A DNA stretch of 35,706 nucleotides from a virus, in the IMG/VR virus record IMGVR_UViG_3300034190_000179, positions 1 to 35,706 of that record; one strand, given 5' to 3'. Made by a program: the position numbers and the translations under genes. Position 1 is the first letter of the stretch; each line of letters starts with the position of its first letter. Shown here piece after piece: positions 3,614 through 22,052 of the stretch. The notes below the pieces were generated by a model. That model worked only from the letters and a program-made list of their open reading frames with translations. It ran no database searches and was not told where the DNA came from.

Positions 3614-3620
3614 ATGTTAA

Positions 3621-5406: not shown

Positions 5407-5418
5407 GTGTTGACTATA

Positions 5419-5446
5419 GTTATACTTATAAATATATATTTGTCAA
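5419..5446 (-). promoter_or_regulatory. Sigma70-like promoter for the major capsid gene
   Basis: On the minus strand a perfect -35 TTGACA (5441-5446), a 16-bp AT spacer and a -10 TATAAC (5419-5424). It lies in the 239-bp gap between the scaffold and capsid genes, pointing at the capsid gene. The whole promoter is flanked by a perfect 7-bp inverted repeat, TGTTGAC (5408-5414) and GTCAACA (5442-5448). As a result a second, weaker TTGACT...TATATA pair also reads in the opposite direction. Confidence 0.7.
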
Positions 5447-5453
5447 CAGTTTT

Positions 5454-6314
5454 TTATCTGGCTGAACCAGATATATCATAGATAAACTTTCCAGAACGGA
5501 TAGCTTCCATAATTTCGTCAGACTGTTTTTCATACTCTTGAGGTGACATCTTTTGAACATCAGATTCTTTTAGATATGAAGAAGCCTCATTCCCCTGTGG
5601 CTTAGACCTCGTATTTTTCGTATTAACAGCTTCAATAGCACCTTTGCCATTTTTGCTTGGTTTTGCCTTGCTGATATTTCTATCTGATTTATATAAGTCA
5701 ATTGCTCGTGCGGCAGATTTTGCATCGTTGTCATTCTCGTATAGTGCCTCCTGCACCCATTTAGGTTGTTCTTCTGCCCACTCGTGAAAGTCATCACTGT
5801 CTCTGATATCCCCAAAGTCAGGATGTATTCTCATCAATTCTGCTTCTGCTTTCTCCTTCGTAGCCGAAAGTTGCATCTCATCAATTGCTTTTAGTCTTTG
5901 TTCTAAATCACTAGACTGTTCTCTAGCTTTCTTTATAGCAATTGTTTCTACTATTGCAGCTACATCAGGATATTCTGCTGCCCACTTCTCCATGTCTTCA
6001 TCAGATTTGGGCAACTTCATCTCTTTTTTAGTAGCTTCAGATAACTGGCGTTTTAAATTTTCCAGTTCTTCTTTAAATTCTTCAGCTTGTTTTTGCTGAT
6101 GCCTACGTAAGTCAGAGTATCTTTTCTTAAAAGTTTTTTCTTCTGCACTAGTAGGTTCATCTTCAGGTGATTCTGCTTCACCCTTCTGTTCTTTAATCAT
6201 CTGTTCTAATTCTTCTTCGTCACGCTTTATACGTTCCTCTTGTGAGTAAGGTTTAGATACAAATGCTGTTTTCTTTTGAGGCTTCATTTCTTCAGCCATG
6301 ATTGTGTCAGACAT
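5454..6314 (-). CDS. Capsid scaffolding protein, 286 aa
   Basis: Highly charged, Glu/Lys/Asp-rich protein with predicted coiled coil over about residues 25-105 and a second helical stretch about 125-160, no hydrophobic core and a basic tail. This is the composition of internal scaffolds that are expelled or degraded before DNA packaging. It starts MSDTIMAEEMKPQKKTAFVS after AGGAGA, spaced 7 nt from the ATG. Its position directly upstream of the major capsid gene and downstream of portal-region genes is the standard one. An 'FKKRYSDLRRHQQK' segment is shared, as I recall, with scaffolds of other marine phages. No protease domain is visible. Confidence 0.82.
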   Translation of the reverse strand: MSDTIMAEEMKPQKKTAFVSKPYSQEERIKRDEEELEQMIKEQKGEAESPEDEPTSAEEKTFKKRYSDLRRHQQKQAEEFKEELENLKRQLSEATKKEMKLPKSDEDMEKWAAEYPDVAAIVETIAIKKAREQSSDLEQRLKAIDEMQLSATKEKAEAELMRIHPDFGDIRDSDDFHEWAEEQPKWVQEALYENDNDAKSAARAIDLYKSDRNISKAKPSKNGKGAIEAVNTKNTRSKPQGNEASSYLKESDVQKMSPQEYEKQSDEIMEAIRSGKFIYDISGSAR

Positions 6315-6380
6315 ATACTGTCTCCTATGCTGGGGCTAACCGTAGCCACGTTGGGGTGGGGAGTTAGGTAGCCAGTTAAT

Positions 6381-6408
6381 GTGGATTAATTTTTAGAGGC
6401 TAATCCAC
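6381..6408 (-). terminator. Perfect 8-bp inverted repeat at the end of the 1,493-aa gene (possible weak terminator)
   Basis: GTGGATTA (6381-6388) and TAATCCAC (6401-6408) pair around a 12-nt loop and span the stop codon of the large gene. No T-tract follows in the direction of transcription, so termination would be weak or Rho-assisted. A role in mRNA 3'-end stability is equally possible. Confidence 0.35.
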
Positions 6409-9400: not shown

Positions 9401-10867
9401 TTTCCAACCTGCTTTGCTTTTAAACAAGTTAGTTTTAATTTGTGTGTTACCTTTTCCTTTTGTTCCTACTTCTTCTACATTTTTATTTGTCACATTGAAA
9501 GAAGGTTTGCCATCAGGATTAATTTTTATATTAGCATTAGGAACATTTTTACCTGTTAAATCTTCGCCTGTAATGGGATTTAAATATTTTCCACCTTTAG
9601 GTCTTTCACCTTCTGGAAACATTCTTTCAGGTTTTGGAAATACAGGCACAGTATCTTCTGCTTTTTTTAAAGCACGTAATCCTTTACCTGCTGCATCACC
9701 CACTACAGGAATTAAACCCAAAGCACCTGCCGCAGTTTCTATAGCAGCACCAGTATAATCTTTTTCATCCATAGCATCTGATACACGTTTAACTGCCATA
9801 GCTTCCCCAACTCCGGGAATAAACTCTGCCGCACCTTTTGCTATATCAACTTTTGATTCATCTAACTTTTTTAATACATCACTAGCAGTTTTTCTTGTAG
9901 GCTGTTCTACAGTACCACTAGGTTCTCGTGTCATAAATCCTTGTTCCATCTGTTTAGATAAAGATAAACCACCTTCATTTAATCCTAATCTTGTTCCCCT
10001 ACCACCAGTTATAGTGCTAGTAATTCCTTGAAAAATGTCACCTACACCAGAAAGCACATTTCTTTTTTTAGTAAATACTTTTTCACCCGGTTTAATTAAA
10101 TCTGCATTTTCAATCTGAGGATTTTGTTTTAATAATTCACTTACAGACAAACCTGTTCTATCTGCTATCTTAGAAAGAGTATCCCCTCTATTAACAATAG
10201 TATATCGGCTACCTTTTCCTTCTTCATCTTCATATATAAAAGTTGGTTGTTCATTTCTTGTTGGGGCTACTGGTTCAAAACTTTTTTGGGTTTGTTCTGC
10301 AACGTCTAGAGGTAAAACAGTTTTTGATTTAATACCTATTTCATCAAGATGTGATAACTGCTGTTGTTGTTCTAGTGCATTAAATACTTTAGGTTTTATA
10401 TATTCTTTTCTAAATAAAATAGCAGCTTGTTCAGGTGTAACTTTTTCCATAGTAGCTGCTAAATTTCGTGCATTATCTACACCAAAAAATGAACCATCAT
10501 TATATTTTTTATCCAAATTACCTGTACTATCTAATAATGCAAATTTAACTTGTGCTTCAGGAGAATTAGGATTTAAATTATTTTCTTTTGTCCATTCATA
10601 AAAACCATTTTTTGATTTACCATCAAATTGAAATAATCCAAAACCTTTACCAAGGACAGAAGAAGATAAAAATTCATCATCAGATTGTGTAAGTCTTAAA
10701 TTCTTTGCATAATCTGATGCATCCTCATCTAGAACTTGTCTAGCTGTTGGGTCAAAACTACTCTCTTCACCAGCAGTGGCATACAAAGCAGCTGTATAAT
10801 TATCAGGATTTAGACCTAGTGATATTGCTTCTTTTCTAATAATATCAATAAGTTTGGTTTTATCCAT
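6386..10867 (-). CDS. Giant virion protein with tail-lysozyme and LysM domains, 1,493 aa
   Basis: Residues ~1-130 resemble phage tail lysozyme/transglycosylase domains: 'AGEESSFDPTARQ' (candidate catalytic Glu34/35) and 'GFGLFQFDG' (75-83). Residues ~221-266 form a clear LysM peptidoglycan-binding motif (YTIVNRGDTLSKIADRTGLS). Around 345-400 two hydrophobic Gly/Ala stretches (FIPGVGEAMA, LGLIPVVGDAAG) recall pre-toxin or membrane-active segments. The middle has a marine-phage 'AQLSEGEFVFPADVVRYIGL' block, then Thr/Pro-rich linkers. The last ~100 residues are an Arg/Glu/Ala/Lys coiled stretch ending MRSGGLASKN. It starts 8 nt inside the preceding small gene and lies between portal and scaffold, so I infer an ejected internal or tail protein that opens the cell wall at infection. 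Domain limits are approximate. Confidence 0.85.
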   Translation of the reverse strand: MDKTKLIDIIRKEAISLGLNPDNYTAALYATAGEESSFDPTARQVLDEDASDYAKNLRLTQSDDEFLSSSVLGKGFGLFQFDGKSKNGFYEWTKENNLNPNSPEAQVKFALLDSTGNLDKKYNDGSFFGVDNARNLAATMEKVTPEQAAILFRKEYIKPKVFNALEQQQQLSHLDEIGIKSKTVLPLDVAEQTQKSFEPVAPTRNEQPTFIYEDEEGKGSRYTIVNRGDTLSKIADRTGLSVSELLKQNPQIENADLIKPGEKVFTKKRNVLSGVGDIFQGITSTITGGRGTRLGLNEGGLSLSKQMEQGFMTREPSGTVEQPTRKTASDVLKKLDESKVDIAKGAAEFIPGVGEAMAVKRVSDAMDEKDYTGAAIETAAGALGLIPVVGDAAGKGLRALKKAEDTVPVFPKPERMFPEGERPKGGKYLNPITGEDLTGKNVPNANIKINPDGKPSFNVTNKNVEEVGTKGKGNTQIKTNLFKSKAGWKWKTSDIDTDNINTLISVNTKGKHYYTLETDFSKGVNLKNYPEQKTEPKLRPTVQGQIELGKPIGTISVRGVEHPVYDKVITFAEGGAVPMKEQMSMFEDGGLMDEGNTIDPVSGNDVPPGSTQEEVRDDIPAQLSEGEFVFPADVVRYIGLEKLMRMRQEAKMGLAAMEAMGQMGNSEEAVMPDDLPFDMYDLDIDDDPVEMQVGGFVPPTYTPPQQKQFTTISAQTPVPTFQQLVPNAPQYTQPTTQQEEITTEAPTTPTAPTAPVTTTTPAPQSEPRQTIEQKATVPGAEYTSQGAVDKSAMYDEYGLKKGNITDFYSGLAEIGIGAMIPGFGLVKNIFDKAKETGAIEEPQQELTPEQKRARMQAEYALGTAITGDIGYKAGDVDPKTGLFYNRYGVPVDPKSGIAYQDKAYTDPKAMANIMSAGNKAGWRGGYIGTKDSNAYKNLSDAQKERYDNFLEQLDVVTDNVGQPELKTFVTVEEEQASGMAEAVPGMVQTPGVANEMQQLGFEDVPDTQRFDTQTRAGEADIMNTLASTDSVLPIPQDLKPFAEVIKKPMLETPESIKIYDTGQYKIAETIDGYFRVKDDGTLASEPLVNNLAVRTIKNNNASNYPVTISYTGYTPEEAGEINRERLTNYYAQLENLKNIKPQINAEVNSTTQAEFDALVAQYNQENTLQKVEQNRAIQKEVDAMLQKSADVQQEQKEKKQRDDNIKVLNDLKPNLVIDSTGKPVRSGGEVATTTAGANMISSSNVNRYVRDDETGSYRTVKPGGVGYSEGITGKELFSQSGDMLSKMIDNKDIVYVKGEYVPIEDVNVSDLPTLQEARLGQVNQSNYYEILADKNIAPSKPKPEEVPTLVDQLTNLFSGDEDDDDDKDDGPTPAEIREQRAAEQRAQQEEAQRQAEAKRKADEAQALREQRAAQLRAQQEAAQRKKDKKDEKKKVVKKTGKSSGVSERVAREKKEIEAGTRTRYSGGRAKGGLMEKEVKQPKQMRSGGLASKN

Positions 10868-11069
10868 TTACTTCATCTCTTAACATTTTAAGTTTACGTA
10901 AAGTTGCTATAGCACCCTGCTGTCTATGCATAGTTACAGCATCATCAGACTGCTCAAGTACTCTATGATGTTGCTCTATTACTAAATCAATATAATTATT
11001 GAACGCTTGCCACTGGTTGCTGTTGTTCACTAGGGGCTTGAGGTTGCTCAACACCTGCTTCTTGTCCAT
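10860..11069 (-). CDS. Small helical phage protein, 69 aa (between portal and internal protein)
   Basis: ATG at 11069 reads MDKKQVLSNLKPLVNNSNQW. An in-frame GTG at 11090 would add seven residues. The rest is helical with 'YIDLVIEQHHRVLEQ' and a closing 'LRKLKMLRDEVNG'. It overlaps the end of the portal frame by about 74 nt and the start of the 1,493-aa gene by 8 nt. I recognise the size, position and 'LR.LK.LRDEVN' ending from short genes that follow portal genes in marine podoviruses. The function is unknown; head-completion or portal-associated roles are possible. Confidence 0.65.
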   Translation of the reverse strand: MDKKQVLSNLKPLVNNSNQWQAFNNYIDLVIEQHHRVLEQSDDAVTMHRQQGAIATLRKLKMLRDEVNG

Positions 11070-13128
11070 TTGCACTAAATCCTTGTTCACCCGGAACTGG
11101 TACTTGACCTGTTCCTATGTTTGCACCACCTGCACCAGTTGGGTCTTCTGGATTAACTCCTGCTGGTACGCCTTGTTCTGGGGGTTGTTCCTGTTGAAAA
11201 CTCTTCATTAGTTCTGCCTGAAGAGCTGCCTCATCCATATTATTAGTAACTTTGTCAGGGTCTAGTTCAAGAGACTTGGCAATCTCACGGATAATAAATT
11301 GAAACTTAGCAAACGGTGCAAGTGCTGGATTACTTGCTACCTGTAAGAACTGCATCAGTCTCTGACTGCGTACTTCATTAGCCATTAGACTTTCAGTACC
11401 ACGTGCTTTAACTTCTAAGTCACCACGTATAGCAGGGTCAAAATCAAATTGCATGTTAAAGCGGAATAGACCCTCTCCTAGCGGTCTTAGAATATAATCG
11501 TCTACATTCTTAATAACATTCTTTGTACCCCCTGCAGCAGCGTTCATAAGCATACTAATACCACTTGCAGTTCTACCTACACCCGATACACCTGTTTGTC
11601 CATGTGCAAATGATGGGAAGCCTGTGCTTTCATCAGAGAGTACACGAGCCTTGTCAAACAGCATCATGTTCTCACTAGATACATTCGGGAACTTCGTACC
11701 AAATATAGCCTGACCGGGTGCGCCACCTTGTCTGCGGAAAACCTTGCCCGGATATAGTGACAAGTCTTGACCCGGCACTAGGTTTGTTTCATCTACCTCT
11801 ACAATCAAATTACCAGACAATACAGCATTGTCAACAGCCATACGCATAAAGCCATTCATTAATGTCTGTGTATCGTCCATGTTTTCAGCAATACCTACAC
11901 CAAAGAATGAATATGGATTTAATTCATATGGTGCAGCCATGTAAGGAATGTTTGCAGGTTTAAATGGATTAAGCACCATTCTTAGTACTTTTCCATTGCA
12001 TATCCACACGTTAGCTTGTAGTTCATCAAAATCTTTTAGTTCAGTTGGTATTTCTGTTCCATACTCTTCTAATAGTTCTGTATCAATCATACCCCAGTAT
12101 TCAAGAACTTCAAAACGCTCTACATCATGTTCTGGTGCATAATCTGATAAATCATCTTCCCAATATTTTTTATCATAATTTTCACCAAGTTTAATGGCTT
12201 CATCAATTACGTTGTCTCTGAAGTACGGTCTTTTTTTGAGATGCCGAAGTTGCGACCTTGACATCTTGTGTCGTTCAATAACATACTGCGCTTCATCCAT
12301 ATTATTGGAATCAGGGTCAGGATAGAAATTCCACACAGAAACATGATTGATTTGTGGTATTGTTTTAAACATCGGGTCATAATTACCATCCTCATCCCAA
12401 TTTGGGTACTCTTTATTTACAGCAAATGGACCTTTTAATACGCCTGTACCAAATAGTGCCATCTCAAACGAACTACTACGCATGTGTTTATTAGCACCCG
12501 ATTCCTGCAACTGGTCATGTATTTTCTTTTCCATTTGCTTTGCAGCAATCATTGCAGGACTAAACGTAATTGATGTAGGAGATTTACCAACACCTTCACG
12601 TAAGTTTTCTACATCTGCTAATTTATTTTCTAAAGGTCCTAATTTGTTTAATAAACTTGATTCTGTTGCACCCGGTTCTAAATCTACACCATCGCCTTTA
12701 AAACCATAAGGACTATTATAATTAGAATCTATTAACTCTTTAGGTAATTGAGGGTCAAAGTTAACATCTGCTACAACACCATCTGGTAATTCTGTAGGGT
12801 CAATCGTAATTGGAAATTTATTGTTTGCAAACAGTACATCAACAATTTGACCATAAGCTGCTAATGTTTTAGTTTTAGTTACTTTTACAAATACTCTTGA
12901 CTTTTCAGTCTCATTAAACTGTACATCAGGTCCGTATAAACCACGATAATTTCTATATGCTTGTAACCAGCGTTGCTCATCTTGATAACGATAATCTTCA
13001 GACTTTTTAAATCTACCCTCAACGTAATTAACTATTGAATTAATATCTACATCAGTTTCTGTGCTGTTATCAGAATCTTCAAGAGATATACCTTCTTCTT
13101 CAAGCATTACATTTTCTTCTTCATTCAT
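10996..13128 (-). CDS. Portal protein, 710 aa
   Basis: The first ATG with a good AGGA ribosome site (7-nt spacing) is at 13128, giving MNEEENVMLEEEG; an upstream TTG at 13149 is less likely. Typical portal features follow: 'RFKKSEDYRYQDEQRWLQAY' near the start, a long helical middle, 'GVGRTASGISMLMNAAAGGT' and 'ILRPLGEGLFRFNMQFD' toward the C-terminus, and a disordered Gln/Pro/Gly-rich tail. The length of ~700 residues is that of large podovirus portals. The dodecameric portal forms the DNA channel at one vertex and docks the terminase (family knowledge). It directly follows the large terminase gene, which is the canonical order. Confidence 0.92.
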   Translation of the reverse strand: MNEEENVMLEEEGISLEDSDNSTETDVDINSIVNYVEGRFKKSEDYRYQDEQRWLQAYRNYRGLYGPDVQFNETEKSRVFVKVTKTKTLAAYGQIVDVLFANNKFPITIDPTELPDGVVADVNFDPQLPKELIDSNYNSPYGFKGDGVDLEPGATESSLLNKLGPLENKLADVENLREGVGKSPTSITFSPAMIAAKQMEKKIHDQLQESGANKHMRSSSFEMALFGTGVLKGPFAVNKEYPNWDEDGNYDPMFKTIPQINHVSVWNFYPDPDSNNMDEAQYVIERHKMSRSQLRHLKKRPYFRDNVIDEAIKLGENYDKKYWEDDLSDYAPEHDVERFEVLEYWGMIDTELLEEYGTEIPTELKDFDELQANVWICNGKVLRMVLNPFKPANIPYMAAPYELNPYSFFGVGIAENMDDTQTLMNGFMRMAVDNAVLSGNLIVEVDETNLVPGQDLSLYPGKVFRRQGGAPGQAIFGTKFPNVSSENMMLFDKARVLSDESTGFPSFAHGQTGVSGVGRTASGISMLMNAAAGGTKNVIKNVDDYILRPLGEGLFRFNMQFDFDPAIRGDLEVKARGTESLMANEVRSQRLMQFLQVASNPALAPFAKFQFIIREIAKSLELDPDKVTNNMDEAALQAELMKSFQQEQPPEQGVPAGVNPEDPTGAGGANIGTGQVPVPGEQGFSANGQEAGVEQPQAPSEQQQPVASVQ

Positions 13129-13138
13129 ACTCTTGTCC

Positions 13139-14698
13139 TTAATATCCAAAGGTTGAATCTGCTACTTGCATACCACCACCCGGTTTTCCATGTGGGTCAT
13201 AATCAAATATACTAAAACGTGGTCGTGACATTATACCATATCTCATCGCATCGTACAAGTGGTCTTCCGCAGTCGTGTCAATATCTTCTGGATTTTTCTT
13301 GTCAATTGGCAAGGCAGGTAACTGTGCGATAATGTTTGTACAACTACTAAAGAAAACAAGTCTAGGCTCTTCCGTATATTCATCTACTTGTAGTCGTCTG
13401 TGTATTTCGTTTTTACCAGCAACACGACTACCTCTACTTATATCTGATGGTCGCCATCTGCAACCCTTTTGTATCATTTGCTCTGCAAGGCTAGGACCAG
13501 TATCACCACGCTTATGCCAAAGAGAACTGTCAAGAACACCATACTTAATATTGCCATCCCCAGCCTCTAAGTCTAGTATCATATCTGCTAAGTCAGTTGC
13601 GAGTACTTTAGAGGTATATAGTTCTCTGTAAACAATTAGTTGCTCACTTGGACTAACAGCAAACCAAACCACGCCACTATATGAACCATAACCATAATCA
13701 CATGCTCTAAACTTAACCCAGTTGTTAGGTATATCAAAAGGCTCAACAACATGGATATCACGATTAAATTCAGTAAATGCTGCACCCTCTTTAATATCCC
13801 AGTCACCTTCCAAGAGTTGTCGTCTTTGTTGCTCTGGTAGTGACAGAAGCATTGCTTCGTAGTCACCTGATTCGGATAGGTAAGGATTGTCAGTAAGTCT
13901 CGCTGGGATAAATCTCCTTTTAAACAAAGACTTTCCTGCCTTTGAGTGTCCAGCAGGATATCGCAACACTTCGTTAGTTTCAATGTCTGTTGCATCAAAT
14001 GCTTTGTCATATGGTGCAGGGTCAATAAACATTTTCTTCACCCAGTGATGTCCTCTTCCCCCGGGGTTAGTTGTAGCCCTCATATAGATAGGCAAGTCAG
14101 GGGCAGTGGACCTCAGACGAGAACGCATGTAATTCCATGCATAAGGTGACTGCCACTGTGTTAACTCGTCAAAGCCTATCCAGCTAAACGCTAGACCCTG
14201 ATAGCGAAGAACGTCATCATCTCTATCAAGATAAGACATCCACAGTCTCGCACCAGAAGGGGCAGTCCACTGCATCTTACGTTCTGACCATTTTATACCC
14301 GGCCATATTTTTGGGTACAACTCTTGTGACTTAAATATAAGTTCACGAAGTTCCTCTGTTGTATGTCGTAACAGCAATCCACTAAATGCTGGATGCCCCA
14401 TATAACGTAGTGGGTCTGCTAACATGGCGTAGGACTTACCACCACCTGCTGAACCACCATATAGTACTTCACGTTCCCCTGCAGCTAGAAAGTCTGTCTG
14501 TGGTCCGGGGTTTGGTTTAAATAAGACATTAGCGTGTTCCTCTTCTTGAAACTCATCTAAGTCAATGTCTTTAATTTCAACCGTTGGCTTTTGCGCCTGT
14601 TCTTTCTTCTTCAAGGGCTTTCGCTTTGGCGATTGCCTTTTCCGCATATTCTGCCCACTTGCGGATGCTTGCAACTTGGTTCTTACGCTGTCGCTCAT
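13139..14698 (-). CDS. terL: Terminase large subunit, 519 aa
   Basis: ATPase motor plus nuclease that packages DNA into the prohead. Walker A GGSAGGGKS is at residues 81-89, Walker B with Asp177-Glu178 in FSWIGFDEL, and coupling motif TTNPGG at 209-214. The RNase H-like nuclease domain from ~330 has candidate metal-binding Asp334 (RACDYGYG), Asp390 (GVLDSS) and Asp483 (LYDAMRYG). The N-terminal ~40 residues are basic and read in a region shared with the preceding 133-aa gene (122-nt overlap). The true start could therefore be slightly downstream (for example Met18). It ends 11 nt before the portal ATG. Confidence 0.95.
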   Translation of the reverse strand: MSDSVRTKLQASASGQNMRKRQSPKRKPLKKKEQAQKPTVEIKDIDLDEFQEEEHANVLFKPNPGPQTDFLAAGEREVLYGGSAGGGKSYAMLADPLRYMGHPAFSGLLLRHTTEELRELIFKSQELYPKIWPGIKWSERKMQWTAPSGARLWMSYLDRDDDVLRYQGLAFSWIGFDELTQWQSPYAWNYMRSRLRSTAPDLPIYMRATTNPGGRGHHWVKKMFIDPAPYDKAFDATDIETNEVLRYPAGHSKAGKSLFKRRFIPARLTDNPYLSESGDYEAMLLSLPEQQRRQLLEGDWDIKEGAAFTEFNRDIHVVEPFDIPNNWVKFRACDYGYGSYSGVVWFAVSPSEQLIVYRELYTSKVLATDLADMILDLEAGDGNIKYGVLDSSLWHKRGDTGPSLAEQMIQKGCRWRPSDISRGSRVAGKNEIHRRLQVDEYTEEPRLVFFSSCTNIIAQLPALPIDKKNPEDIDTTAEDHLYDAMRYGIMSRPRFSIFDYDPHGKPGGGMQVADSTFGY

Positions 14699-14978
14699 TC
14701 TGTAACCGTTTCCTTAATCCTACGTGAGATATGTATCTGCCAGAGTTTGTACTTAACCAATTAGCTACCTCACGATAGCTGTATTGATTTACGTGTTGTC
14801 TAGCCTTTTCTAATAAATCTAATTCAGTTGGTATGGGGTCAAGAATGTCAGGGTCTTCTTCATTTAACTTATATCCGAATGGTACAGTACGTGCAATGCG
14901 TGGTATCTGTACCCACTCGTTCTCTTCTTTTATATCTGTCGGTTGTGGAAGTTTCCACTTGCCTATACTACGTGTCAT
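14577..14978 (-). CDS. HTH DNA-binding protein next to terminase, 133 aa
   Basis: Begins MTRSIGKWKLPQPTDIKEEN. Residues ~66-95 (YSYREVANWLSTNSGRYISH) form a helix-turn-helix of the resolvase/Hin type, followed by a long Lys/Arg/Glu/Ala helix to the end. I recognise this as a protein found immediately upstream of the large terminase in many marine phages. A role in recognising the packaging site together with, or instead of, a classical small terminase is plausible. It overlaps terL by 122 nt and the preceding gene by 11 nt, so all are co-translated. DNA binding is inferred from the motif; the target is unknown. Confidence 0.75.
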   Translation of the reverse strand: MTRSIGKWKLPQPTDIKEENEWVQIPRIARTVPFGYKLNEEDPDILDPIPTELDLLEKARQHVNQYSYREVANWLSTNSGRYISHVGLRKRLQNERQRKNQVASIRKWAEYAEKAIAKAKALEEERTGAKANG

Positions 14979-15222
14979 TTTTCTTTTTACGATTGTCTAC
15001 AACTTTTACAGGATTTACATACTTTTTAGTTGCTAATCCTCCACTACTATAAAAATAATCACGCACATAAGAACGCAAAGTATCAATACCACCGGGACCA
15101 GTAGATTGCCCTTTAATAAAAGAAAGTTCATCTTTTCCAAAGCGTGTTAAAATTTTAGGTCCAAACTCTTTTAAAATTGCAGCTTTAGTCATCTTAGATA
15201 CGGGGTCTTTTTCATTTGCCAT
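14968..15222 (-). CDS. Small basic phage protein with SGGLA motif, 84 aa
   Basis: Starts on the A of the preceding stop (TAATG overlap) as MANEKDPVSKMTKAAILKEF. The N-terminal half is helical. The C-terminal part carries SSGGLATKKYVNPVKVVDNR and a run of lysines, a tail shared in my recollection by several unrelated marine-phage proteins. It sits between the small terminase-like gene and the HTH gene. No enzyme motif is visible. A small virion or packaging accessory is possible; the function is unknown. Confidence 0.7.
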   Translation of the reverse strand: MANEKDPVSKMTKAAILKEFGPKILTRFGKDELSFIKGQSTGPGGIDTLRSYVRDYFYSSGGLATKKYVNPVKVVDNRKKKNDT

Positions 15223-15596
15223 TATTCATCGTCCTCACTTGTTGCTTTAGGTGGCATGAGCATAACACCGCCACTAGATTCCACTTGCATTTTTTCTGTC
15301 TTCACCAAACCTGAACGGTCTAGTAATTCTTTTGCTGCTGCCATCTTATCACGTATACCTAATTCTGTTGGGTCATACAGCGCACCTGTCATAGCCATTG
15401 CTGCCTTTGGTGCATTACGTGCCATGTACATAGATGTAGCTTCTAGTATCTCATCCTTCAGTCCTTTTACAATATCTGTAGTAGGTGTGTTGGGAGCATA
15501 CCCAGCAATCTTCTTTGCTTGTACGACATCACCACCAGCTTCTTCAAAGAGAACTGCAAGAAACTTTTTTTGTCTGTCATTTAATTGTCGTGTCAC
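15222..15596 (-). CDS. Small terminase-like protein, 124 aa
   Basis: I place the start at the GTG (15594-15596) that overlaps the lysozyme stop as GTGA, because GGAG lies 8 nt upstream and the family homology begins right after it (TRQLNDRQKKFLAVLFEEAG). An in-frame start at 15662 would add 22 unrelated residues inside the lysozyme gene. Residues ~5-45 match the helix-turn-helix of phage small terminases (RQ..F....G....A...AGY), followed by an oligomerisation-type helical part and a flexible acidic tail ending EDDE. The small subunit recognises the packaging site and regulates the large subunit (family knowledge). Confidence 0.75.
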   Translation of the reverse strand: MTRQLNDRQKKFLAVLFEEAGGDVVQAKKIAGYAPNTPTTDIVKGLKDEILEATSMYMARNAPKAAMAMTGALYDPTELGIRDKMAAAKELLDRSGLVKTEKMQVESSGGVMLMPPKATSEDDE

Positions 15597-16081
15597 TTCA
15601 TTTCTCCTGTTGCCATAGCATGGGCTAAACGTGTGGCACGTCCTTTTACTTGTCTTGCCCATCTGCTATCAAGCATTTCTTTTGCGGCAGTCTTGAAGTC
15701 ATTGTCATGTATAGCTGCCCACATGTTCTTGAACTTCTTTAATCTTGGTACACCCATGTTAAATGCCATGTCCATTACTACAAGTTGACGTACACTGTCT
15801 AAGCTATCCACGCAAGGATGCGCTCGGCATAGTTCTTCTTCGACAATCTGTACGTCATTCGTTGCTAAATAAACCGCATCTTCTTTTGTAATGCCATGCT
15901 CGTATACAACATCCATATTTGGAATATCCATATGGTCAAGTTCTGCTTTACTAATGCCACGGTCTTTTAGGTTTCTTCCGATGCCGATTGTATCAATGCC
16001 TAGCGTATCTTGGTACACTGTCAGCACAAGACCTTCTCCATCAATCAGCTTCTTTATAAAGATTTCTCTATCGTACTTCAT
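15593..16081 (-). CDS. T4-type lysozyme (endolysin, GH24), 162 aa
   Basis: Hydrolyses peptidoglycan to lyse the host. The catalytic triad lines up with T4 lysozyme Glu11/Asp20/Thr26: Glu16 in DGEGL, Asp25 in YQDTLG and Thr31 in DTIGIGRNL. Length (162 versus 164 in T4) and the C-terminal 'MAFNMGVPRLKKFKNMW....F..AA.EMLDSRWARQVKGRA' block match the family. There is no signal peptide, so release needs a holin. Two holin-like genes lie immediately upstream; the nearest overlaps by ATGA. Downstream it overlaps the small terminase gene. Confidence 0.95.
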   Translation of the reverse strand: MKYDREIFIKKLIDGEGLVLTVYQDTLGIDTIGIGRNLKDRGISKAELDHMDIPNMDVVYEHGITKEDAVYLATNDVQIVEEELCRAHPCVDSLDSVRQLVVMDMAFNMGVPRLKKFKNMWAAIHDNDFKTAAKEMLDSRWARQVKGRATRLAHAMATGEMK

Positions 16082-16275
16082 TTCTTTTCACTACCTAACC
16101 AAACTGCAAATGCACCTGTCATTGCACCACTAACTACAGATATCATTGCACTCTGTTGTGTGCTAATATCATCTAATGAAATGCCCCACTCAATCACTCG
16201 TATATACATTATTGTCATTACAAGCATCATTAATCGTGGTAGAATCTTGTACTCTAATATCGTCTTTGCAGCCAT
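16078..16275 (-). CDS. Small two-helix membrane protein, putative holin, 65 aa
   Basis: Begins MAAKTILEYKILPRLMMLVM. Two hydrophobic helices are visible, residues ~11-30 and ~40-61, with a short loop (GISLDDISTQ) and a charged SEKK end, the layout of a small class II-like holin. It stops in an ATGA overlap with the lysozyme start. I recognise 'TTQQSAMISVVSGAMTGAFAVW'-type sequence from marine phages in the same position. The holin role is inferred from topology and position; the neighbouring three-helix protein is an alternative or partner. Confidence 0.75.
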   Translation of the reverse strand: MAAKTILEYKILPRLMMLVMTIMYIRVIEWGISLDDISTQQSAMISVVSGAMTGAFAVWLGSEKK

Positions 16276-16277
16276 TG

Positions 16278-16661
16278 TTATTTCTTTCCGAAGAATTTCG
16301 TTGCGCTACGTACTCCAAAAGAAGCAGCCACAATAATGCCAAGACTATACTGATACCACTGAGGCATTGCTTCCAACTGGGCAAAACCATTTGCTACTAC
16401 CTCTTCCATTCCCGGTATGAATGCTAAGATTAATGGAATACTAAATAAAATGGTAAGCCACTCGTCTTTCCACGAAGACTGACTACCTTTAGCCATCTCC
16501 AAATCCCAATCAATTTCACCTGTAGCTTTCTTCTGCATTACTACAGCTTCAGCTTGTGCCTTGGCTACCTTAGTAGCTGACTGTGCTTTCTTCTCTTCTA
16601 CCTTACCTTGTAACCATGTACCAGCTAAATCTGCTACAGGTCCTATCAGCATATTAAGCAC
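16278..16661 (-). CDS. Holin-like membrane protein of the gene-transfer-agent 3TM type, 127 aa
   Basis: The best start is the GTG at 16661 (GAGG, 7-nt spacing), giving VLNMLIGPVADLAGTW; a longer frame reaches 16688. After an Ala/Lys/Glu coiled region comes 'SWKDEWLTILFSIPLILAFI', then 'AMPQWYQYSLGIIVAASFGV', two clear membrane helices, with the N-terminal hydrophobic stretch a possible third. The 'DEW....P..Y.......A.FG.R' pattern recalls the GTA_holin_3TM family. It lies 2 nt upstream of the 65-aa membrane gene and close to the lysozyme, so the three form a lysis cassette. Confidence 0.75.
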   Translation of the reverse strand: MLNMLIGPVADLAGTWLQGKVEEKKAQSATKVAKAQAEAVVMQKKATGEIDWDLEMAKGSQSSWKDEWLTILFSIPLILAFIPGMEEVVANGFAQLEAMPQWYQYSLGIIVAASFGVRSATKFFGKK

Positions 16662-16899
16662 GTCTAAACCTCGCTGTTTTCTTTGCAATTGACTTTGGTT
16701 GCCTCACAAACTGTTTTCCCTGCTTTGTTCCTTGGCGTTTCGCTCGTGATGTTGCCGCATACTCCGCAGATGTAAGGCTCTTTATCGCTGAAGTAGGAAG
16801 GTATCTTTCTCCAGTTTCTGCTGATGGTTTTCCAGATTTGGTTCTCCACTTTTGTTTTGTCCATGACTTTAAACTCTTTTGTGATTTTGCTAGTGACAT
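16654..16899 (-). CDS. Small basic conserved phage protein, 81 aa
   Basis: Starts on the last base of the preceding gene as MSLAKSQKSLKSWTKQKWRT. Very Lys/Arg-rich with 'TGERYLPTSAIKSLTSAEYA' in the middle and a basic tail ending ARFRRA. I recognise this family as widespread in marine phages, with no known function. The charge and length suggest binding to nucleic acid or an internal head component. An alternative frame in the same DNA (16664-16864) encodes a Cys-x2-Cys stretch, but the present frame is the conserved one. Confidence 0.72.
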   Translation of the reverse strand: MSLAKSQKSLKSWTKQKWRTKSGKPSAETGERYLPTSAIKSLTSAEYAATSRAKRQGTKQGKQFVRQPKSIAKKTARFRRA

Positions 16900-17357
16900 T
16901 ATAAACCTTTCAAGAAAAGAGCAAACCAGACTACTAAAGCTAAACCACCTAATCCTACAATAATAAGTATAGTAAGTAATATACCTTCTATTATCTGCTT
17001 TTTTCTTTTACGTGCTTGTGCCTCTTCTTCTCTTCTTTGCTTTCTCATCTTGGCTTGGAATGCTACCCAATCATCCCACAAATGATGTCTACCATATAAC
17101 ATCATCAGTTCTTTAAGTTCATGCTCTTGTTCTCTTATCTTTTCAAGTGCCATAAACTCGTCTAAATCATTTGCACCTTTACCTTTGAAAGCTGACCAGA
17201 AAGAATTTTTCTTTTTACTACCTTGCTTCTCTAACTTTTCTTTAATTCCAATGTATTCACCAATACTGTGTGCAGCACTAGCTAAATCTTTTCCGTTCAT
17301 TACGGTTTGTTTTATAACACCAAATGCAGCATTGGCTGCGGCTAGTTCTGCTAACAT
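16899..17357 (-). CDS. Membrane-anchored virion-associated protein, 152 aa
   Basis: Begins MLAELAAANAAFGVIKQTVM after GGGGAGA. Helical, with 'NDLDEFMALEKIREQEHELK' and 'MLYGRHHLWDDWVAFQAKMR', then an Arg/Lys/Glu helix and one hydrophobic membrane segment over residues ~125-150. The opening and 'LMMLYGR..LWDDW..FQ' are familiar from marine and cyanophage genomes, where the protein is annotated only as conserved or virion-associated. A tail or injection role is possible. It precedes the lysis cassette, so a membrane role at lysis cannot be excluded. Confidence 0.72.
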   Translation of the reverse strand: MLAELAAANAAFGVIKQTVMNGKDLASAAHSIGEYIGIKEKLEKQGSKKKNSFWSAFKGKGANDLDEFMALEKIREQEHELKELMMLYGRHHLWDDWVAFQAKMRKQRREEEAQARKRKKQIIEGILLTILIIVGLGGLALVVWFALFLKGL

Positions 17358-17383
17358 GTGTCTCCCCTTTCACGTGTAGCATT

Positions 17384-17641
17384 TTATTTGTACCCACCGC
17401 CTTTTGCTTTATATTGCTTGGCTAACATCTGGGCCTTTCTTGCTGACCATTGACCAGCACCGCCACCAGCAGTACCAGCTTTTATTTTATTAAATAAGTT
17501 CTTTCTCATTGTGGGCTTAGTATAGTTACCAGCTTCGTTAACTCTTGATTTGCTCTGTGTCGTACCGCCTTGCGAAAGGCTAACCTTTCTAGTCGGTTTC
17601 TTTTTCTTTGCAGTTTGTGAGGTTTTTTTTTGTAGAGACAC
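17384..17641 (-). CDS. DUF5872-like small basic protein, 85 aa (start region may be frameshifted)
   Basis: The body 'NYTKPTMRKNLFNKIKAGTA' and 'GQWSARKAQMLAKQYKAKGG' is a compact motif I know from phage and algal-virus small proteins (DUF5872-like). The function is unknown. The frame opens at a GTG (17639-17641) with GGAG 7 nt upstream. However, an ATG at 17646-17648, also with a suitable GGGAG site, reads MARVSTKK and then runs into a stretch of nine adenines (17623-17631), after which it is out of frame. With eight adenines it would join this protein exactly. So this is either a true GTG start or a homopolymer slip in the gene or the assembly. Confidence 0.72.
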   Translation of the reverse strand: MSLQKKTSQTAKKKKPTRKVSLSQGGTTQSKSRVNEAGNYTKPTMRKNLFNKIKAGTAGGGAGQWSARKAQMLAKQYKAKGGGYK

Positions 17642-17659
17642 GTGCCATCTCCTATCTCC

Positions 17660-18019
17660 CTACCTTGATGGGTCATAAAATTCTTCAGCAGCTACAAGTG
17701 CAGTTAATTGATTTGCACTATCAGCCGCTATTATTATTTTATCTTCTGCGTGTAAAAATAAAGGAGTAGTATTTGTAAATACATTCTCAAAATCTTTACC
17801 TGTTACTGGATGAGATGTAAATAAAGTATGTGTGGTGTTAGTTAACTTTTCATATATTTTTAGTGTATAATCTTCATTAGATGAATTAGTATTACTAATC
17901 ATAAGATTATAAACATGAGATGAAAAGTTTTTTGGAACAACATATACATCTGTATCTGATGTGGTAGTTAGGTCAGTAGTTTGTGTAACAAATTTTGAAC
18001 CATCTTGTGTTCTAGGCAT
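17660..18019 (-). CDS. Small structural-type protein, 119 aa
   Basis: Starts MPRTQDGSKFVTQTTDLTTT on the stop of the 48-aa gene (TAATG). Beta-type, Thr/Asn/Asp-rich with 'NFSSHVYNLMISNTN' and 'LHAEDKIIIAADSANQLTAL', the profile of small beta-sandwich virion proteins. No catalytic residues or membrane segment. I do not recognise a named family. Head-tail connector, stopper or decoration are all possible. It lies in the small-gene run upstream of the lysis genes. Confidence 0.65.
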   Translation of the reverse strand: MPRTQDGSKFVTQTTDLTTTSDTDVYVVPKNFSSHVYNLMISNTNSSNEDYTLKIYEKLTNTTHTLFTSHPVTGKDFENVFTNTTPLFLHAEDKIIIAADSANQLTALVAAEEFYDPSR

Positions 18020-18165
18020 TACTTTATCCTAACCTTATCAATACAGATAACTGACCACTTGTGCAGTTTTACATTCCACCTGCCAAGTAGTCTAGCTATC
18101 TTCAAAAACAGATGACTTAAAAATGTCCAATAAGCATCTACTATAATATTCTTTAAGTCAGACAT
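18019..18165 (-). CDS. Tiny basic protein, 48 aa
   Basis: ATG at 18165 overlaps the stop of the upstream gene as TAATG, and its own TAA overlaps the next ATG at 18019 in the same way. It therefore fills the gap exactly, which is strong support for a gene this short. It reads MSDLKNIIVDAYWTFLSHLF and ends VRIK. Amphipathic, with hydrophobic/aromatic and basic residues interleaved (YWTFLSHLFLKIARLLGRW). That pattern fits a membrane-surface or membrane-active peptide. Function unknown. Confidence 0.6.
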   Translation of the reverse strand: MSDLKNIIVDAYWTFLSHLFLKIARLLGRWNVKLHKWSVICIDKVRIK

Positions 18166-18302
18166 TACTTTTTCTTTGCTACGCCACCACGCATCATTTT
18201 CTTTTTAGCCATCTTAGCCATGCCACCACCACGCATCTTCTTTTGTGCAACACCGCCACGCATCATTTTCTTTTTAGCTACTTTTGTTTTACCCATTGCC
18301 AT
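18165..18302 (-). CDS. Lys/Met/Gly repeat mini-protein, 45 aa
   Basis: The start is set at the ATG at 18302 (MAMGKTKVAKKK), which has AAGGAGAT ideally placed; a longer frame to 18347 lies inside the previous gene. The whole product is an internal repeat of 'KKKMMRGGVA' and 'RGGGMAK' units (three copies), ending AKKK. Extreme charge and no tertiary core suggest nucleic-acid or polyanion binding. The (R)GG(V/M)A unit recurs in neighbouring phage proteins. Function unknown; an internal head or DNA-condensing peptide is one guess. Confidence 0.62.
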   Translation of the reverse strand: MAMGKTKVAKKKMMRGGVAQKKMRGGGMAKMAKKKMMRGGVAKKK

Positions 18303-18819
18303 TACGTAATCTCCTTCTATCAAGAACCAAGGCTTCATATGTTTCATCAGGAAAATGTTTATAGTATCCTGACTTCTCTAAACTCAGTGCAGCATCATCT
18401 AACACTGACAAACGCTGCACAAAAACCATGCAGTATTCTAAATCACTACTAGTTATACCATCTTCTTCTAAAAAGTCAAGCCCTGCATCACTAGCATCAA
18501 ACTCTGGATGAAACACCATCAGGTGTAAATCTATACCTGCTAGGCTTAGTGCTTCATTCATGCCATCACAAAAACCATCTAGGTATTCCATGCTTGGCAT
18601 GTCTTCGTCAGCCCATACAACTATGTCGTAATCATGGCTATCAAATATCTGTATCTCTGCACGTAGACCTTCAAGACCTGTGTTAACACTAAAAATTACC
18701 TGATTATCTGCCCACGCTTTAGCTGCGTATGGACATGGTGGTAATCCGTTTAACTTTACGTTTGGTATTTCAAGAAAGTTGTGTGACCAATTACGTATGT
18801 CTTGTTCTATTGGGTGCAT
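18289..18819 (-). CDS. Conserved phage protein of unknown function, 176 aa
   Basis: Begins MHPIEQDIRNWSHNFLEIPN with 'LPPCPYAAKAWADNQVIFSV' following. The CPYA/AW pattern is loosely like DUF1415-type proteins, but I am not certain. It has a mixed alpha/beta look, acidic, soluble, with several Asp-rich loops ('DSHDYDIVVWADEDMPSMEY') and a C-terminal basic RRRLRNGNG. I recognise the opening from other marine phages, where it stays hypothetical. It is the only full-sized globular protein in the run of tiny genes at this end. Start overlaps the previous stop (TAATG). Confidence 0.7.
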   Translation of the reverse strand: MHPIEQDIRNWSHNFLEIPNVKLNGLPPCPYAAKAWADNQVIFSVNTGLEGLRAEIQIFDSHDYDIVVWADEDMPSMEYLDGFCDGMNEALSLAGIDLHLMVFHPEFDASDAGLDFLEEDGITSSDLEYCMVFVQRLSVLDDAALSLEKSGYYKHFPDETYEALVLDRRRLRNGNG

Positions 18820-19181
18820 TAGTTCCCAGTGATTTTATTAAATGCTTCTGGGCTTTTAGCTTTCAATGCTTTTAGACCGGGGTTCATTGTAACTGAACCA
18901 CCTGCTGCGTACATATGCTTCTTACCATATGCCATACCACCTTCAGCCATTTGTGCTTTAGCAAGTTTTTTGGCATCCTTCTTTTTCATAGTACCTACAC
19001 CAATTGAAACAACCATTACATCTTTGTCTTTATTTTTCTTTTTCATTAATGCACCTTTACTAGCCTGTACAGTTTCTTCAGGATTTGCTACCTTGGCTTT
19101 AGCATTCTTTACTTCTTGTGGTGTGTAATCTTTTGGTGATTCAAGAATTGTTCTAGCTTTTGAAAGAGACATGTTAGCCAT
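18819..19181 (-). CDS. Small basic phage protein with GGMA motif, 120 aa
   Basis: Starts MANMSLSKARTILESPKDYT. The N-terminus is helical; then Lys-rich, 'KKLAKAQMAEGGMAYGKKHM', and a C-terminal 'YAAGGSVTMNPGLKALKAKS' before PEAFNKITGN. The GGMA/GGSV segments belong to the same short Gly-Gly motif group as other small proteins here. It resembles conserved short proteins of marine phages with no assigned function. Both ends overlap neighbours by a single base (TAATG-type), so it is tightly coupled. Confidence 0.68.
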   Translation of the reverse strand: MANMSLSKARTILESPKDYTPQEVKNAKAKVANPEETVQASKGALMKKKNKDKDVMVVSIGVGTMKKKDAKKLAKAQMAEGGMAYGKKHMYAAGGSVTMNPGLKALKAKSPEAFNKITGN

Positions 19182-19483
19182 TAGTATTTTCCTTTTCTTG
19201 ATTTAGGGCTAGACTTTGTAGAACCACCCTTGCCCTTCCACAAAAATCTACATGACCAATATCGTGCTGTCAGTTTATCTGTAGCTGTATCACAGTTATG
19301 TCTAGCACGAAATGATTTACGTGCAGCATCACTATAATTGTGACCATAACCTTTAGCACCAAAGTGTATTAACTTTACTTTGTCACCATCCTTTGCCAAT
19401 ACCATATATTTCTTACCTTCACGATTAGAAGGCTTTGGTTTATTATACCCAGAAAATGTTATGCCACGATATTCTATTGACAT
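19181..19483 (-). CDS. DUF5754-like small basic protein, 100 aa
   Basis: Begins MSIEYRGITFSGYNKPKPSN after a GAGG site. The sequence 'KYMVLAKDGDKVKLIHFGAK' followed by 'SFRARHNCDTATDKLTARYW' matches what I know as a conserved phage/viral small protein (DUF5754-like), including the 'K..K...RHNC' region and a following W-S-C. It is strongly basic with a Lys/Ser/Arg tail ending RKGKY. The function is not established. Two Cys (in RHNC and WSC) might pair or bind metal. Confidence 0.72.
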   Translation of the reverse strand: MSIEYRGITFSGYNKPKPSNREGKKYMVLAKDGDKVKLIHFGAKGYGHNYSDAARKSFRARHNCDTATDKLTARYWSCRFLWKGKGGSTKSSPKSRKGKY

Positions 19484-19674
19484 TAGATACCTCTATCATA
19501 CTCACATTTAAAACTGTACGTATGCCCACCACTAAATATTACATCTACATCATCTACTATTTCAGTAGCACGTGCCTTGCATTCTTCTCTAGTATTATAT
19601 GGTCCATAACTGTCTTCAAGTAATACACAACTACCCACATACATTGAACACGCCATTACCCAAGTAGTAAACAT
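19483..19674 (-). CDS. Small cysteine-containing protein, 63 aa
   Basis: Reads MFTTWVMACSMYVGSCVLLE. A short hydrophobic N-terminus with two Cys is followed by 'DSYGPYNTREECKARATEIV' and ends with 'YSFKCEYDRGI'. The C..C....GPY.T.EEC pattern is familiar from tiny periplasmic-looking proteins in marine phages. The N-terminus may act as a weak signal or anchor, placing disulfides in the periplasm; this is inference. It ends with overlap into the next gene. No strong ribosome site is seen, so the start may be one of the internal Met codons (residue 7 or 11). Confidence 0.6.
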   Translation of the reverse strand: MFTTWVMACSMYVGSCVLLEDSYGPYNTREECKARATEIVDDVDVIFSGGHTYSFKCEYDRGI

Positions 19675-19683
19675 TTTATCACA

Positions 19684-19905
19684 CTATACATCATCAGTAT
19701 CCTTCCAGCCTTCAGCTTTCATAGCTTTCTCTACATGCTCTAGGGTAAACTTACGACCATAGTATGCTTCTACTGCTGCTCTTACATAGAATACATCACT
19801 ATGTGGTATATGTAAATCACGTAATGTGTTATTCTTTATACCATCATAAAATGCTTCAAGCACATTATCTGTATATAGTTTTACAGATTTCTTCTTATTT
19901 GTCAA
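19684..19905 (-). CDS. First gene of the minus-strand operon, 73 aa, TTG start
   Basis: Opens with TTG at 19905 (AGGA 8 nt upstream) reading (M)TNKKKSVKLYTDNVLEAFY. There is no in-frame ATG before the conserved-looking body 'GIKNNTLRDLHIPHSDVFYV' and 'AAVEAYYGRKFTLEHVEKAM'. It is mainly helical and soluble; the last part may be a small DNA-binding-like fold, but no HTH is clear. As the first gene after the promoter and repeat region it is placed like a phage regulatory gene. That is suggestive only. Confidence 0.6.
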   Translation of the reverse strand: MTNKKKSVKLYTDNVLEAFYDGIKNNTLRDLHIPHSDVFYVRAAVEAYYGRKFTLEHVEKAMKAEGWKDTDDV

Positions 19906-20089: not shown

Positions 20090-20387
20090 CCCCTAAAATG
20101 CATTAGTTGTTTATTTTGTGTGTCAGAAATATGACCTACCATATATATGGTTTATCAGTTACCCTTGTGGTTAACACTTAATATTCCTAATCTGTGTATT
20201 TCTGTGTATACGTAACGTATGGAGGGGGGGTGGCATCCTGCCCTACCCTTTGATTTTAAAAGAATATTATGTTTTATTCCAGAAAATGAGCAATTAATGT
20301 AATCAATATCTATCTAATGCATTGTTTTTATTATGTTTTATTATTTATAGTCAATTGTTATGTTATCAATTGCCCCTAAAATGTATA

Positions 20388-20808: not shown

Positions 20809-20840
20809 TTGACTAAAACAAAATAATAATAGACTATAAT
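20809..20840 (+). promoter_or_regulatory. Candidate rightward promoter ahead of the structured segment
   Basis: A perfect -10 TATAAT (20835-20840) with TTGACT (20809-20814) upstream, but at a long 20-bp spacing, so the -35 match is imperfect. Its transcript would begin near 20847 and run through the structured segment into the GP88 gene. A second candidate closer to that gene is TTGTTT (21152-21157) with TATATT (21174-21179), spacing 16. Confidence 0.35.
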
Positions 20841-20887: not shown

Positions 20888-21160
20888 TATACTAGGTTAC
20901 TATCACCAGTAATAGGCAAGGACTAGCCATAAACGATAGCGTGTGCATCGGAAGTGCCATGTGAGGGAAAGCCAAAGACACTATAAGTGCGCCTTAATAC
21001 CTGCTATACTGTAACGCTATTGCACCTAGTTAGCCAATAGGTGAGGTCGAAGTGAGATAGTATTCAGTATAGTGGACAGAACGCTTGGACAAGGGTGGAG
21101 TGTATCTAAATGCAGCATAGTTGCGTCTAGAGTATGCCATGCACAAATCCCTTGTTTTTT
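20888..21160 (+). ncRNA. Candidate structured RNA with pseudoknot and terminator-like 3' end
   Basis: This segment is visibly richer in G+C than its surroundings, has no credible open frame, and contains several perfect complementary pairs. They are CGATAGCGT (20934-20942) with ACGCTATTG (21014-21022); TACTATC (20898-20904) with GATAGTA (21056-21062); ACTAGGT (20891-20897) with ACCTAGT (21024-21030), competing with a local hairpin CACCTA/TAGGTG (21023-21043); and CTGCTATACTG (21001-21011) with CAGTATAGTGG (21065-21075), which crosses the first helix as a pseudoknot. The 3' end has ACAAGGG (21089-21095) pairing with CCCTTGT (21149-21155) followed by T5, enclosing a GCATA/TATGC hairpin. I do not recognise a known RNA family. 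It could be a stand-alone RNA or a 5' leader regulator. Confidence 0.5.
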
Positions 21161-21226
21161 ATCTTGTGTTGGGTATATTCTTATGATAGGGTGTATCCTA
21201 TACAGAATAAAACAAAAGGTGAGAAA

Positions 21227-21937
21227 ATGAGCAATTATAATTTACTAGGTGTTGGTAACAATGCCAAAACTATCAAGGGTGATGGTTCAGAATACTTGAC
21301 AGCTATTATGTATCTATCACCAGCGGATAAAGTTGAGGGTGTTAATTTATGCCCTATGGCAGTATTGGCAGGATGTAAAGAGCCTTGTCTTGACGAAGCA
21401 GGACGTGGACAGATGAACGTGGTTCAACGTGGTAGGATGCGTAAAACTGTATTATGGCGAGATTTTCCAGAAGTTTTTCTGGCACAATTACACGAGGATT
21501 TACGCAAGTTTCAGACGTATTGCTTAAAACGTGGTATTACACCTTGTGTAAGACTGAATGGTACTAGTGATATCAGATGGGAAAAACATATTGACATGGA
21601 AAAAGATTATCCAGATATCCAGTTTTATGACTATACAAAAGATGTAAAAAGGGTACGTAAAAAACTACCTAAAAATTACCACTTGACATTATCTTACAGT
21701 AGAGCGACTATCAGATACAGTGCAATGGTATTAGATGAGATGAGAGACAGAAAAACAAATAATATGGCAGTAGTATTCAGACACAAGCACCAGATACCAA
21801 AGAAATTTATGGGGTTTGATGTAGTGGATGGGGATAAAGATGACCTAAGATTTTTAGACCCCAAGGGTGTTGTAGTTGCCTTGTATGCAAAAGGTAAAGC
21901 AAGGTATGACAATACAGGATTTGTAATTGACGCATAA
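21227..21937 (+). CDS. GP88-family phage protein, 236 aa
   Basis: The start is set at the ATG at 21227 (MSNYNLLGVGNNAKTIKGDG), which has AAGGTGAG upstream; an extension to 21134 would run back through the RNA-like leader and lacks a ribosome site. Motifs of the phage 'gene product 88' family are plain: 'LCPMAVLAGCKEPCLDEAGR' (Cys42, Cys50, Cys54), 'CVRLNGTSDIRWE', 'FYDYTKD', 'NYHLTLSYS', 'VVDGDKDDLRFLDPKGVVVA' and a final KGKARYDNTGFV. Family function is not established; the clustered Cys suggest metal or Fe-S binding. It is the first gene of the rightward block, so probably expressed early. Confidence 0.82.
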   Translation: MSNYNLLGVGNNAKTIKGDGSEYLTAIMYLSPADKVEGVNLCPMAVLAGCKEPCLDEAGRGQMNVVQRGRMRKTVLWRDFPEVFLAQLHEDLRKFQTYCLKRGITPCVRLNGTSDIRWEKHIDMEKDYPDIQFYDYTKDVKRVRKKLPKNYHLTLSYSRATIRYSAMVLDEMRDRKTNNMAVVFRHKHQIPKKFMGFDVVDGDKDDLRFLDPKGVVVALYAKGKARYDNTGFVIDA

Positions 21938-21950
21938 AGTTACTAGTCGA

Positions 21951-22052
21951 ATGAGTATAAACATGGTTAAGCCTATATACGACTATAAACAAGACGTAGG
22001 TAGCTTTGATAGTGGCTTCACAAGAAAACTATCACTAACTCAAACAGCATAG
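21951..22052 (+). CDS. Possible 33-aa peptide
   Basis: ATG at 21951 to TAG at 22050-22052, reading MSINMVKPIYDYKQDVGSFD and ending SLTQTA. No ribosome site precedes it. It fills most of the gap between GP88 and the 62-aa gene and contains the first copy of a 14-bp repeat, AAACAAGACGTAGG. It may be a real micro-protein or untranslated spacer. Confidence 0.25.
   Translation: MSINMVKPIYDYKQDVGSFDSGFTRKLSLTQTA

Follow-up and report, generated by a model that had tools for sequence, protein, structure and literature searches.

A conserved pseudoknotted phage RNA that joins exchangeable 5′ domains to a constant 3′ domain ahead of an early rightward operon

The intergenic locus and its structured segment

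The window, the whole stretch of DNA analysed here, comes from IMG/VR as a virus record 35,706 bases long. Its structural genes run leftward on the minus strand (605-19905) and its replication genes rightward from GP88 at 21227, and the structured-RNA segment forms the right edge of the 1.3-kb gap that separates these two operons. The phage encodes an integrase. Its DNA polymerase has its closest matches in Puniceispirillum phage HMO-2011, at 64% identity, and Roseobacter phage CRP-345, at 63%, on which basis we regard the phage as HMO-2011-type. The features of the locus are collected in Table 1. The hairpin between the RNA and GP88 is retained as GGATATA/TATATCC in L002 and GGGTATA/TATATCC in L074 (L numbers are our handles for the sequences), with changes that preserve standard or G-U pairs.

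Table 1 Features of the locus in window coordinates.
Feature	Position	Strand	Remarks
Promoter-like element	20809-20840	+	TTGACT 20809-20814 and GACTAT 20832-20837 at 17 nt (TATAAT 20835-20840 at 20 nt)
Whole type-1 structured RNA, 5′ and 3′ domains	20889-21162	+	14 homologues, covariation
P1	20890-20911	+	UACU.GGU (20890-20897) with ACCAGUA (20905-20911)
P2	20900-20939	+	CUAUC (20900-20904) with GAUAG (20935-20939); crosses P1
P2a	20915-20928	+	GGC/GCC hairpin in the long loop of the pseudoknot; 97.6% paired, GC/CG/AU exchanges
P6	20979-20989	+	CAC/GUG hairpin ahead of conserved GCGCCU; 85.7% paired; same-branch double changes 2 against 0.20 expected, 7/1000
P7	21001-21075	+	11-bp long-range helix 21001-21011/21065-21075, a pair of the earlier note
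Basal helix	21079-21157	+	GAAC (21079-21082) with GUUU (21154-21157); purine run GGAGAG/GGACAG with U-rich tail
Constant 3′ domain	21084-21158	+	three helices, P8, P9 and P10
P8	21091-21095/21149-21153	+	NNGGG/CCCNN
P9	21100-21104/21140-21144	+	GUGUA/UGCAC; swapped whole for CUAUG/CAUAG in six members
P10	21105-21131	+	hairpin of variable length
(Nearly) invariant unpaired letters	21096-21099, 21132-21139, 21145-21147	+	UGGA, GUAUGCCA and AAA, respectively
Terminator-like tail	21155-21160	+	T6, after the P8 stem
Leader hairpin	21171-21198	+	GGGTATA/TGTATCC, between RNA and GP88
GP88 gene	21227-21937	+	first gene past the RNA in the window phage; PF17338, E 7.7e-47

An earlier note, made from the letters alone, had described the segment as a structured RNA with at least five complementary pairs, raised G+C, no open frame and no resemblance to a nameable RNA family, and on these points it was accurate. 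The pairs it listed are present when checked letter by letter, and the G+C content of 0.45-0.47 compares with 0.18-0.28 upstream. Within 20888-21130 no ORF reaches 60 aa, and stop codons break all plus-strand frames in every homologue. Rfam 15 gave no match for the RNA at gathering score and none at relaxed thresholds (4227 models); the only gathering-score match in our data was to a tRNA located elsewhere. Identity as a tRNA or tmRNA was rejected for want of a cloverleaf or tmRNA model match, as was a T-box-like idea, the GGGUGG box reading GGGCAG in L189.

Two signs that the earlier note had tied to a real RNA, covariation in homologues and a folding energy better than that of shuffled sequence, gave different answers: covariation is present (24 same-branch double changes against 8.1 expected; see below), whereas the folding energy of the whole segment is not distinctive (z = −0.67; 50 of 200 shuffles fold equally well) and proved uninformative as a criterion. 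Whole-RNA z-scores of the family members lie mostly between −1.6 and −0.3, with one type-2 member at −2.6, and the 3′ domain taken alone (z = −3.4) gives the sole clearly significant energy result. As folding energy is ordinary in the single sequence, the segment had to be judged through its homologues.

Homologues and the type-1 fold

The earlier note had suggested the upstream regions of GP88 genes as a source of homologues. Such relatives exist, but they yielded just two near-identical copies, useless for covariation, and the covariation came from a wider family. One member, L074, was reached through relatives of the DNA polymerase and matches the control region and the 3′ 149 nt (85% identity), with a different RNA front. 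The family was gathered by exact pattern scans of IMG/VR with a front motif, a back motif, a second-front core and a window-front core, duplicate records from one population being counted once. Members are of type 1 (the window, L002, L210, L215, L216, L218, L219, L224, L244, L246 and L250-L253), type 2 (L003, L074, L162, L182, L189, L194, L199 and L211-L213, with L225 carrying a variant front) or type 4 (L214, L217 and L220). Type-1 5′ domains are 52-99% identical to that of the window (alignment of 14 sequences). BLAST against named phages returned no RNA homologue, and 16 matches from a genome scan were rejected as chance because the upstream half of the domain was absent.

The carriers come from at least two groups of marine phages: HMO-2011-type phages, and phages that encode a single-subunit RNA polymerase together with a primase/helicase. 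Both of these enzymes are encoded by L169 (the contig to which L003 belongs), and L224 has a matching primase/helicase and terminase. An integrase is present in 14 of the 33 RNA-carrying records, and that of the window has no match in records L003, L189 and L224 of the RNA-polymerase group. The 45-kb record IMGVR_UViG_2802429358_000003 (L189, L204) has a copy of the RNA at each end. The two copies are separated by about 41 kb, as would fit a 41-kb genome whose ends are redundant; the IMG number of the record resembles those given to isolates or single-cell genomes, which would make it suitable for laboratory work. Upstream of the core in L246 (minus strand) and L249, the type-1 RNA appears to be partly duplicated internally, with GGTGGCAAGACCATAATGCATCACAGATGCGCC before GGTGGTACAGACCATAATGCACTAGCAGTGCGCC replacing the usual P1 region.

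Across the 14 type-1 sequences (alignment A3), the fold comprises nine helices with 44 pairs, and 95.3% of 593 cells are paired. Both-sided changes occur in 20 of the 44 pairs, and 0 of 500 shuffles reached either the fraction of paired cells or the covariation score; sliding the partners by 1-3 columns, as a control, lowered pairing to 30-47%. Because shuffles ignore relatedness, changes were also counted per branch of a FastTree tree, where the excess of same-branch double changes given above was reached in 0 of 2000 trials and P7, P9 and P2a each gave 0/1000. G-U pairs, which would be A-C mismatches on the opposite strand, are seen in many members, and the plus strand is therefore the RNA sense. 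The segment is almost certainly a real, conserved structured RNA, and the earlier note was right to treat it as a hitherto undescribed one.

P1 and P2 were misaligned in a few rows of A3, and their letters were registered by hand in 12 members. The inner three pairs of P1 are formed in 36 of 36 cells, with 4 same-branch double changes against 0.94 expected (9/5000), and P2 in 60 of 60, with 7 against 2.2 (1/5000). These two conserved helices cross, and 20890-20939 therefore forms an H-type pseudoknot, whose loop hairpin P2a shows 4 same-branch double changes against 1.06. P7 is paired in all 154 cells of the 14 homologues, with double changes in five pairs and 5 same-branch events against 0.95. 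The basal helix is 98.2% paired, with double changes in one pair and zero same-branch events, so that its support is weak.

A pseudoknot had been claimed in the earlier note as well, formed by 21001-21011/21065-21075 and 20934-20942/21014-21022. The former pairing is P7 and stands. The latter is not conserved, reaching 9 of 9 pairs only in the window, L002 and L210 and 3-7 of 9 in other homologues, and five of its nine 5′ bases (20935-20939) are taken up by P2. The RNA is pseudoknotted, but where P1 crosses P2. A proposed switch between 20891-20897/21024-21030 and a rival hairpin at 21023-21043 is not supported by the comparison: outside close relatives or a single loop class neither pairing is kept, and there they do no better than shuffled loops.

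A constant 3′ domain behind exchangeable 5′ domains

The segment at 20889-21158 is a member of a conserved pseudoknotted phage RNA, read from the plus strand; behind its exchangeable 5′ domain comes a constant 3′ domain whose closing GC-rich stem is followed by a U-rich tail. In 15 sequences of the 3′ domain, 94.1% of cells are paired, and the covariation score is 0.392 against 0.148 in shuffles (0/500). The covariance model built from these sequences, R1, recognises six CUAUG variants outside its training set at E ~1e-13, and the reduced L194 at 2e-6. It finds one 3′ domain per record, except at the redundant ends of one record, and none in the sampled regions of HMO-2011, CRP-1, CRP-207, CRP-345 and HTVC033P.

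The long-range stem that the earlier note placed at the 3′ end is strongly conserved, and the T5 it read after the stem is a T6. Over 22 members, the 8 nt past the stem contain a mean of 4.5 T against 1.67 locally expected. Runs of T5 or longer occur only in the close relatives of the window, the tail of other members being merely U-rich. A simple intrinsic-terminator scan found no terminator; the P8 stem itself is conserved.

The same 3′ domain lies behind three unrelated 5′ domains, those of types 1, 2 and 4. Type 2 also covaries, with 85.5% of cells paired even with one helix string partly mis-set; a candidate type-2 pseudoknot, GCGCU/AGCG, was rejected as not conserved in L074 or L194. Two natural pairs illustrate the exchange. 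From a point 11 nt ahead of the 3′ domain, L210 (type 1) and L199 (type 2) share 99.6% identity over 9226 nt; before the RNA they share 92.8%, and the 5′ domains between these stretches are unrelated. The swap pattern recurs in L216 (type 1) and L217 (type 4), with 97.6% identity downstream. Since the 5′ domains are unrelated between otherwise near-identical contigs, the 5′ domain moves as a cassette. The type-4 5′ domain contains a stretch, CTGGTTCAATGCCAG, that resembles a tRNA T arm (L217 860-1240, minus strand; L214 3690-4060; L220), possibly within a truncated tRNA-like fold; ARAGORN and Rfam found no tRNA in this domain.

Possible roles of the RNA and other noncoding elements

In 19 of 21 members a −35-like TTGAC lies in the 110 nt that precede the RNA, as against 4.2% of shuffles; in 10 of 12 type-1 members it sits at −77 to −82; a generic consensus promoter scan by itself performs at chance level. 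Where measured, the next gene begins 37-76 nt past the 3′ domain, which leaves little room for a separate promoter, so that transcription of the downstream genes probably runs through the RNA. The gene families that follow it number at least seven: GP88 (directly after the RNA in the window, L220, L244 and L251-L253), a KRKGT protein of 58-62 aa, a 200-aa MSVENIL protein, and the small proteins of L074/L199/L210, L194, L162 and L246. Given this variety and the two phage groups that carry it, the RNA is not tied to GP88. The earlier note, which proposed a phage noncoding RNA or a leader of the GP88 operon, was right about position and too narrow in linking the RNA to GP88.

We tentatively lean towards a leader that would control read-through into the early rightward operon, with an exchangeable input and a constant output. 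Host RNA polymerase would start at the conserved TTGAC promoter and the 5′ domain would fold while emerging from the polymerase. The 3′ domain would serve as the output: by forming or binding, this terminator-like structure would set read-through or antitermination into the early genes, and each of the three 5′ domains would feed it an alternative input or specificity. The covariation of the plus-strand fold, the upstream TTGAC, the 37-76-nt gap, the varied next genes and the U-rich tail of most members favour this leader; because the downstream families differ, its target would be the operon and not a single gene, and the boundary between L210 and L199 at the start of the 3′ domain is what would be expected if input and output are separable. 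It fits less well that good T5-T6 runs are limited to close relatives of the window and that the U-rich tail elsewhere may serve to pair with the purine run of the basal helix. The invariant unpaired letters of the 3′ domain would be needless in a plain terminator, 200 nt is large for an antitermination element, and the competing pairs that would have backed a switch are not conserved. Nearly as likely is a trans-acting early noncoding RNA, which would be the first transcript of an infection, would stop at its own terminator-like 3′ domain and would bind a host factor (RNA polymerase, the ribosome, a nuclease or a defence protein); its 5′ domain would provide specificity and its 3′ domain a shared partner or stability. 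Such an RNA would account for the promoter-like and terminator-like ends, the position leading the early region in both phage groups, the independence of the downstream gene, the swap between near-identical phages and the single copy per record, though with the next gene so close the RNA probably belongs to an mRNA as well.

The remaining explanations are less probable. P4 CI RNA and P1 c4 RNA are immunity RNAs in the leader of an early operon, and by analogy the leader could shut off the early operon of a superinfecting relative of a temperate phage, phages with the same cassette type forming an immunity group. The leader position, the exchangeable specificity with cassette swapping as in immunity regions, the frequent integrase (14/33) and the lack of a repressor-like Pfam match among ten early proteins scanned all point this way. 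We nevertheless consider immunity improbable: the RNA also occurs in records of about 41-45 kb without a matching integrase, in the RNA-polymerase-encoding group (L003, L189, L224), and unlike the P4 and P1 RNAs, to which it is as far as known unrelated in sequence and structure, it lacks conserved long complementary segments. Its internal ones are just 6-7 nt, and 20891-20897/21024-21030, the candidate for such a segment, was rejected as not conserved. A ligand-sensing riboswitch or attenuator for GP88 is suggested by an aptamer-like 5′ domain and terminator-like 3′ end directly before that gene in the six members named above, and appears very unlikely in view of the at least seven unrelated families that follow the RNA, the three unrelated 5′ domains and the absence of an Rfam riboswitch match. 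Least credible is that there is no functional RNA at all, only chance complementarity or a DNA element such as an origin, packaging or recombination site. A folding energy equal to that of shuffled sequence and cassette swapping, which could mark a recombination hot spot, would agree with this, but compensatory changes with G-U intermediates in many helices refute it as far as structure is concerned.

The modular exchange pattern suggests selection for changing specificity. It is possible, if on balance doubtful, that the RNA represents a new class, a universal 3′ effector domain joined to 5′ specificity domains that nearly identical marine phages interchange, and put to use in taking over the host, countering its defences or competing with other phages; if so, this two-part RNA would be the RNA counterpart of modular specificity proteins. 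Phage early regions decide host takeover, and few noncoding RNAs are known from them. The well-supported family described here, new to Rfam and common to two marine phage groups, comes with a defined structure and with sequence models, and also with natural pairs of near-identical sequences in which the 5′ domain is the main difference, making its function directly testable.

Among known systems, the putRNA of HK022 (PMC9378689) is an antitermination leader; it measures about 70 nt, folds into two stem-loops and binds the beta-prime zinc domain of RNA polymerase. Like it, the window RNA is a structured RNA downstream of an early phage promoter and independent of the first gene, and by analogy it might likewise act in cis on the elongating polymerase; membership is not claimed, since the window RNA, at about 270 nt, contains a pseudoknot, has 5′ domains that can be swapped and finishes in a U-rich tail. 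With GOLLD, ROOL and other ornate phage or bacterial RNAs (PMC12286853) it shares the nature of a structured noncoding RNA from phages or metagenomics, and differs from GOLLD and ROOL in its smaller size, leader position and lack of an Rfam model match. The text of a genome survey of HMO-2011-type phages (PMC9038755) has no mention of noncoding RNA, and our search of the literature on HMO-2011 and noncoding RNA, like a wider look by title, found no description of the RNA, although other papers may exist.

Several further noncoding elements were observed in these phages. A box, TTACCCTTGTGGTTAACACTTAATATTCCTAATCTGTGTATTTCTGTGTATACGTA, followed by a G/C-rich palindrome-like stretch at 20156-20220 of the window is conserved in HMO-2011, L074, L086, L102 and L141 and is a candidate replication origin or attachment site. 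A second conserved element (window 21945-22010; L072 3244-3310; L117 530-600; L102 2505-2565) has the pattern AGTCGAAtGA..TAAACaTGGTTAAGCC.....ACGACTATAAA..AAGACG, whose ends AGTCG/CGACT could pair; in the window it lies between GP88 and the 62-aa gene. In L086, another HMO-2011-type contig, about 1 kb of G+C-rich, apparently noncoding sequence (1080-2050) heads the early operon; models R1 and R2 gave no match there, and it perhaps holds several further structured RNAs. HMO-2011 itself carries a repeated palindrome, (A)GTCCGACAGCGGAC(T) or its inverse (L153 ~3880 and 4810; L152 ~60, 1260 and 1925), with copies in several intergenic gaps where the group of the window has structured RNAs.
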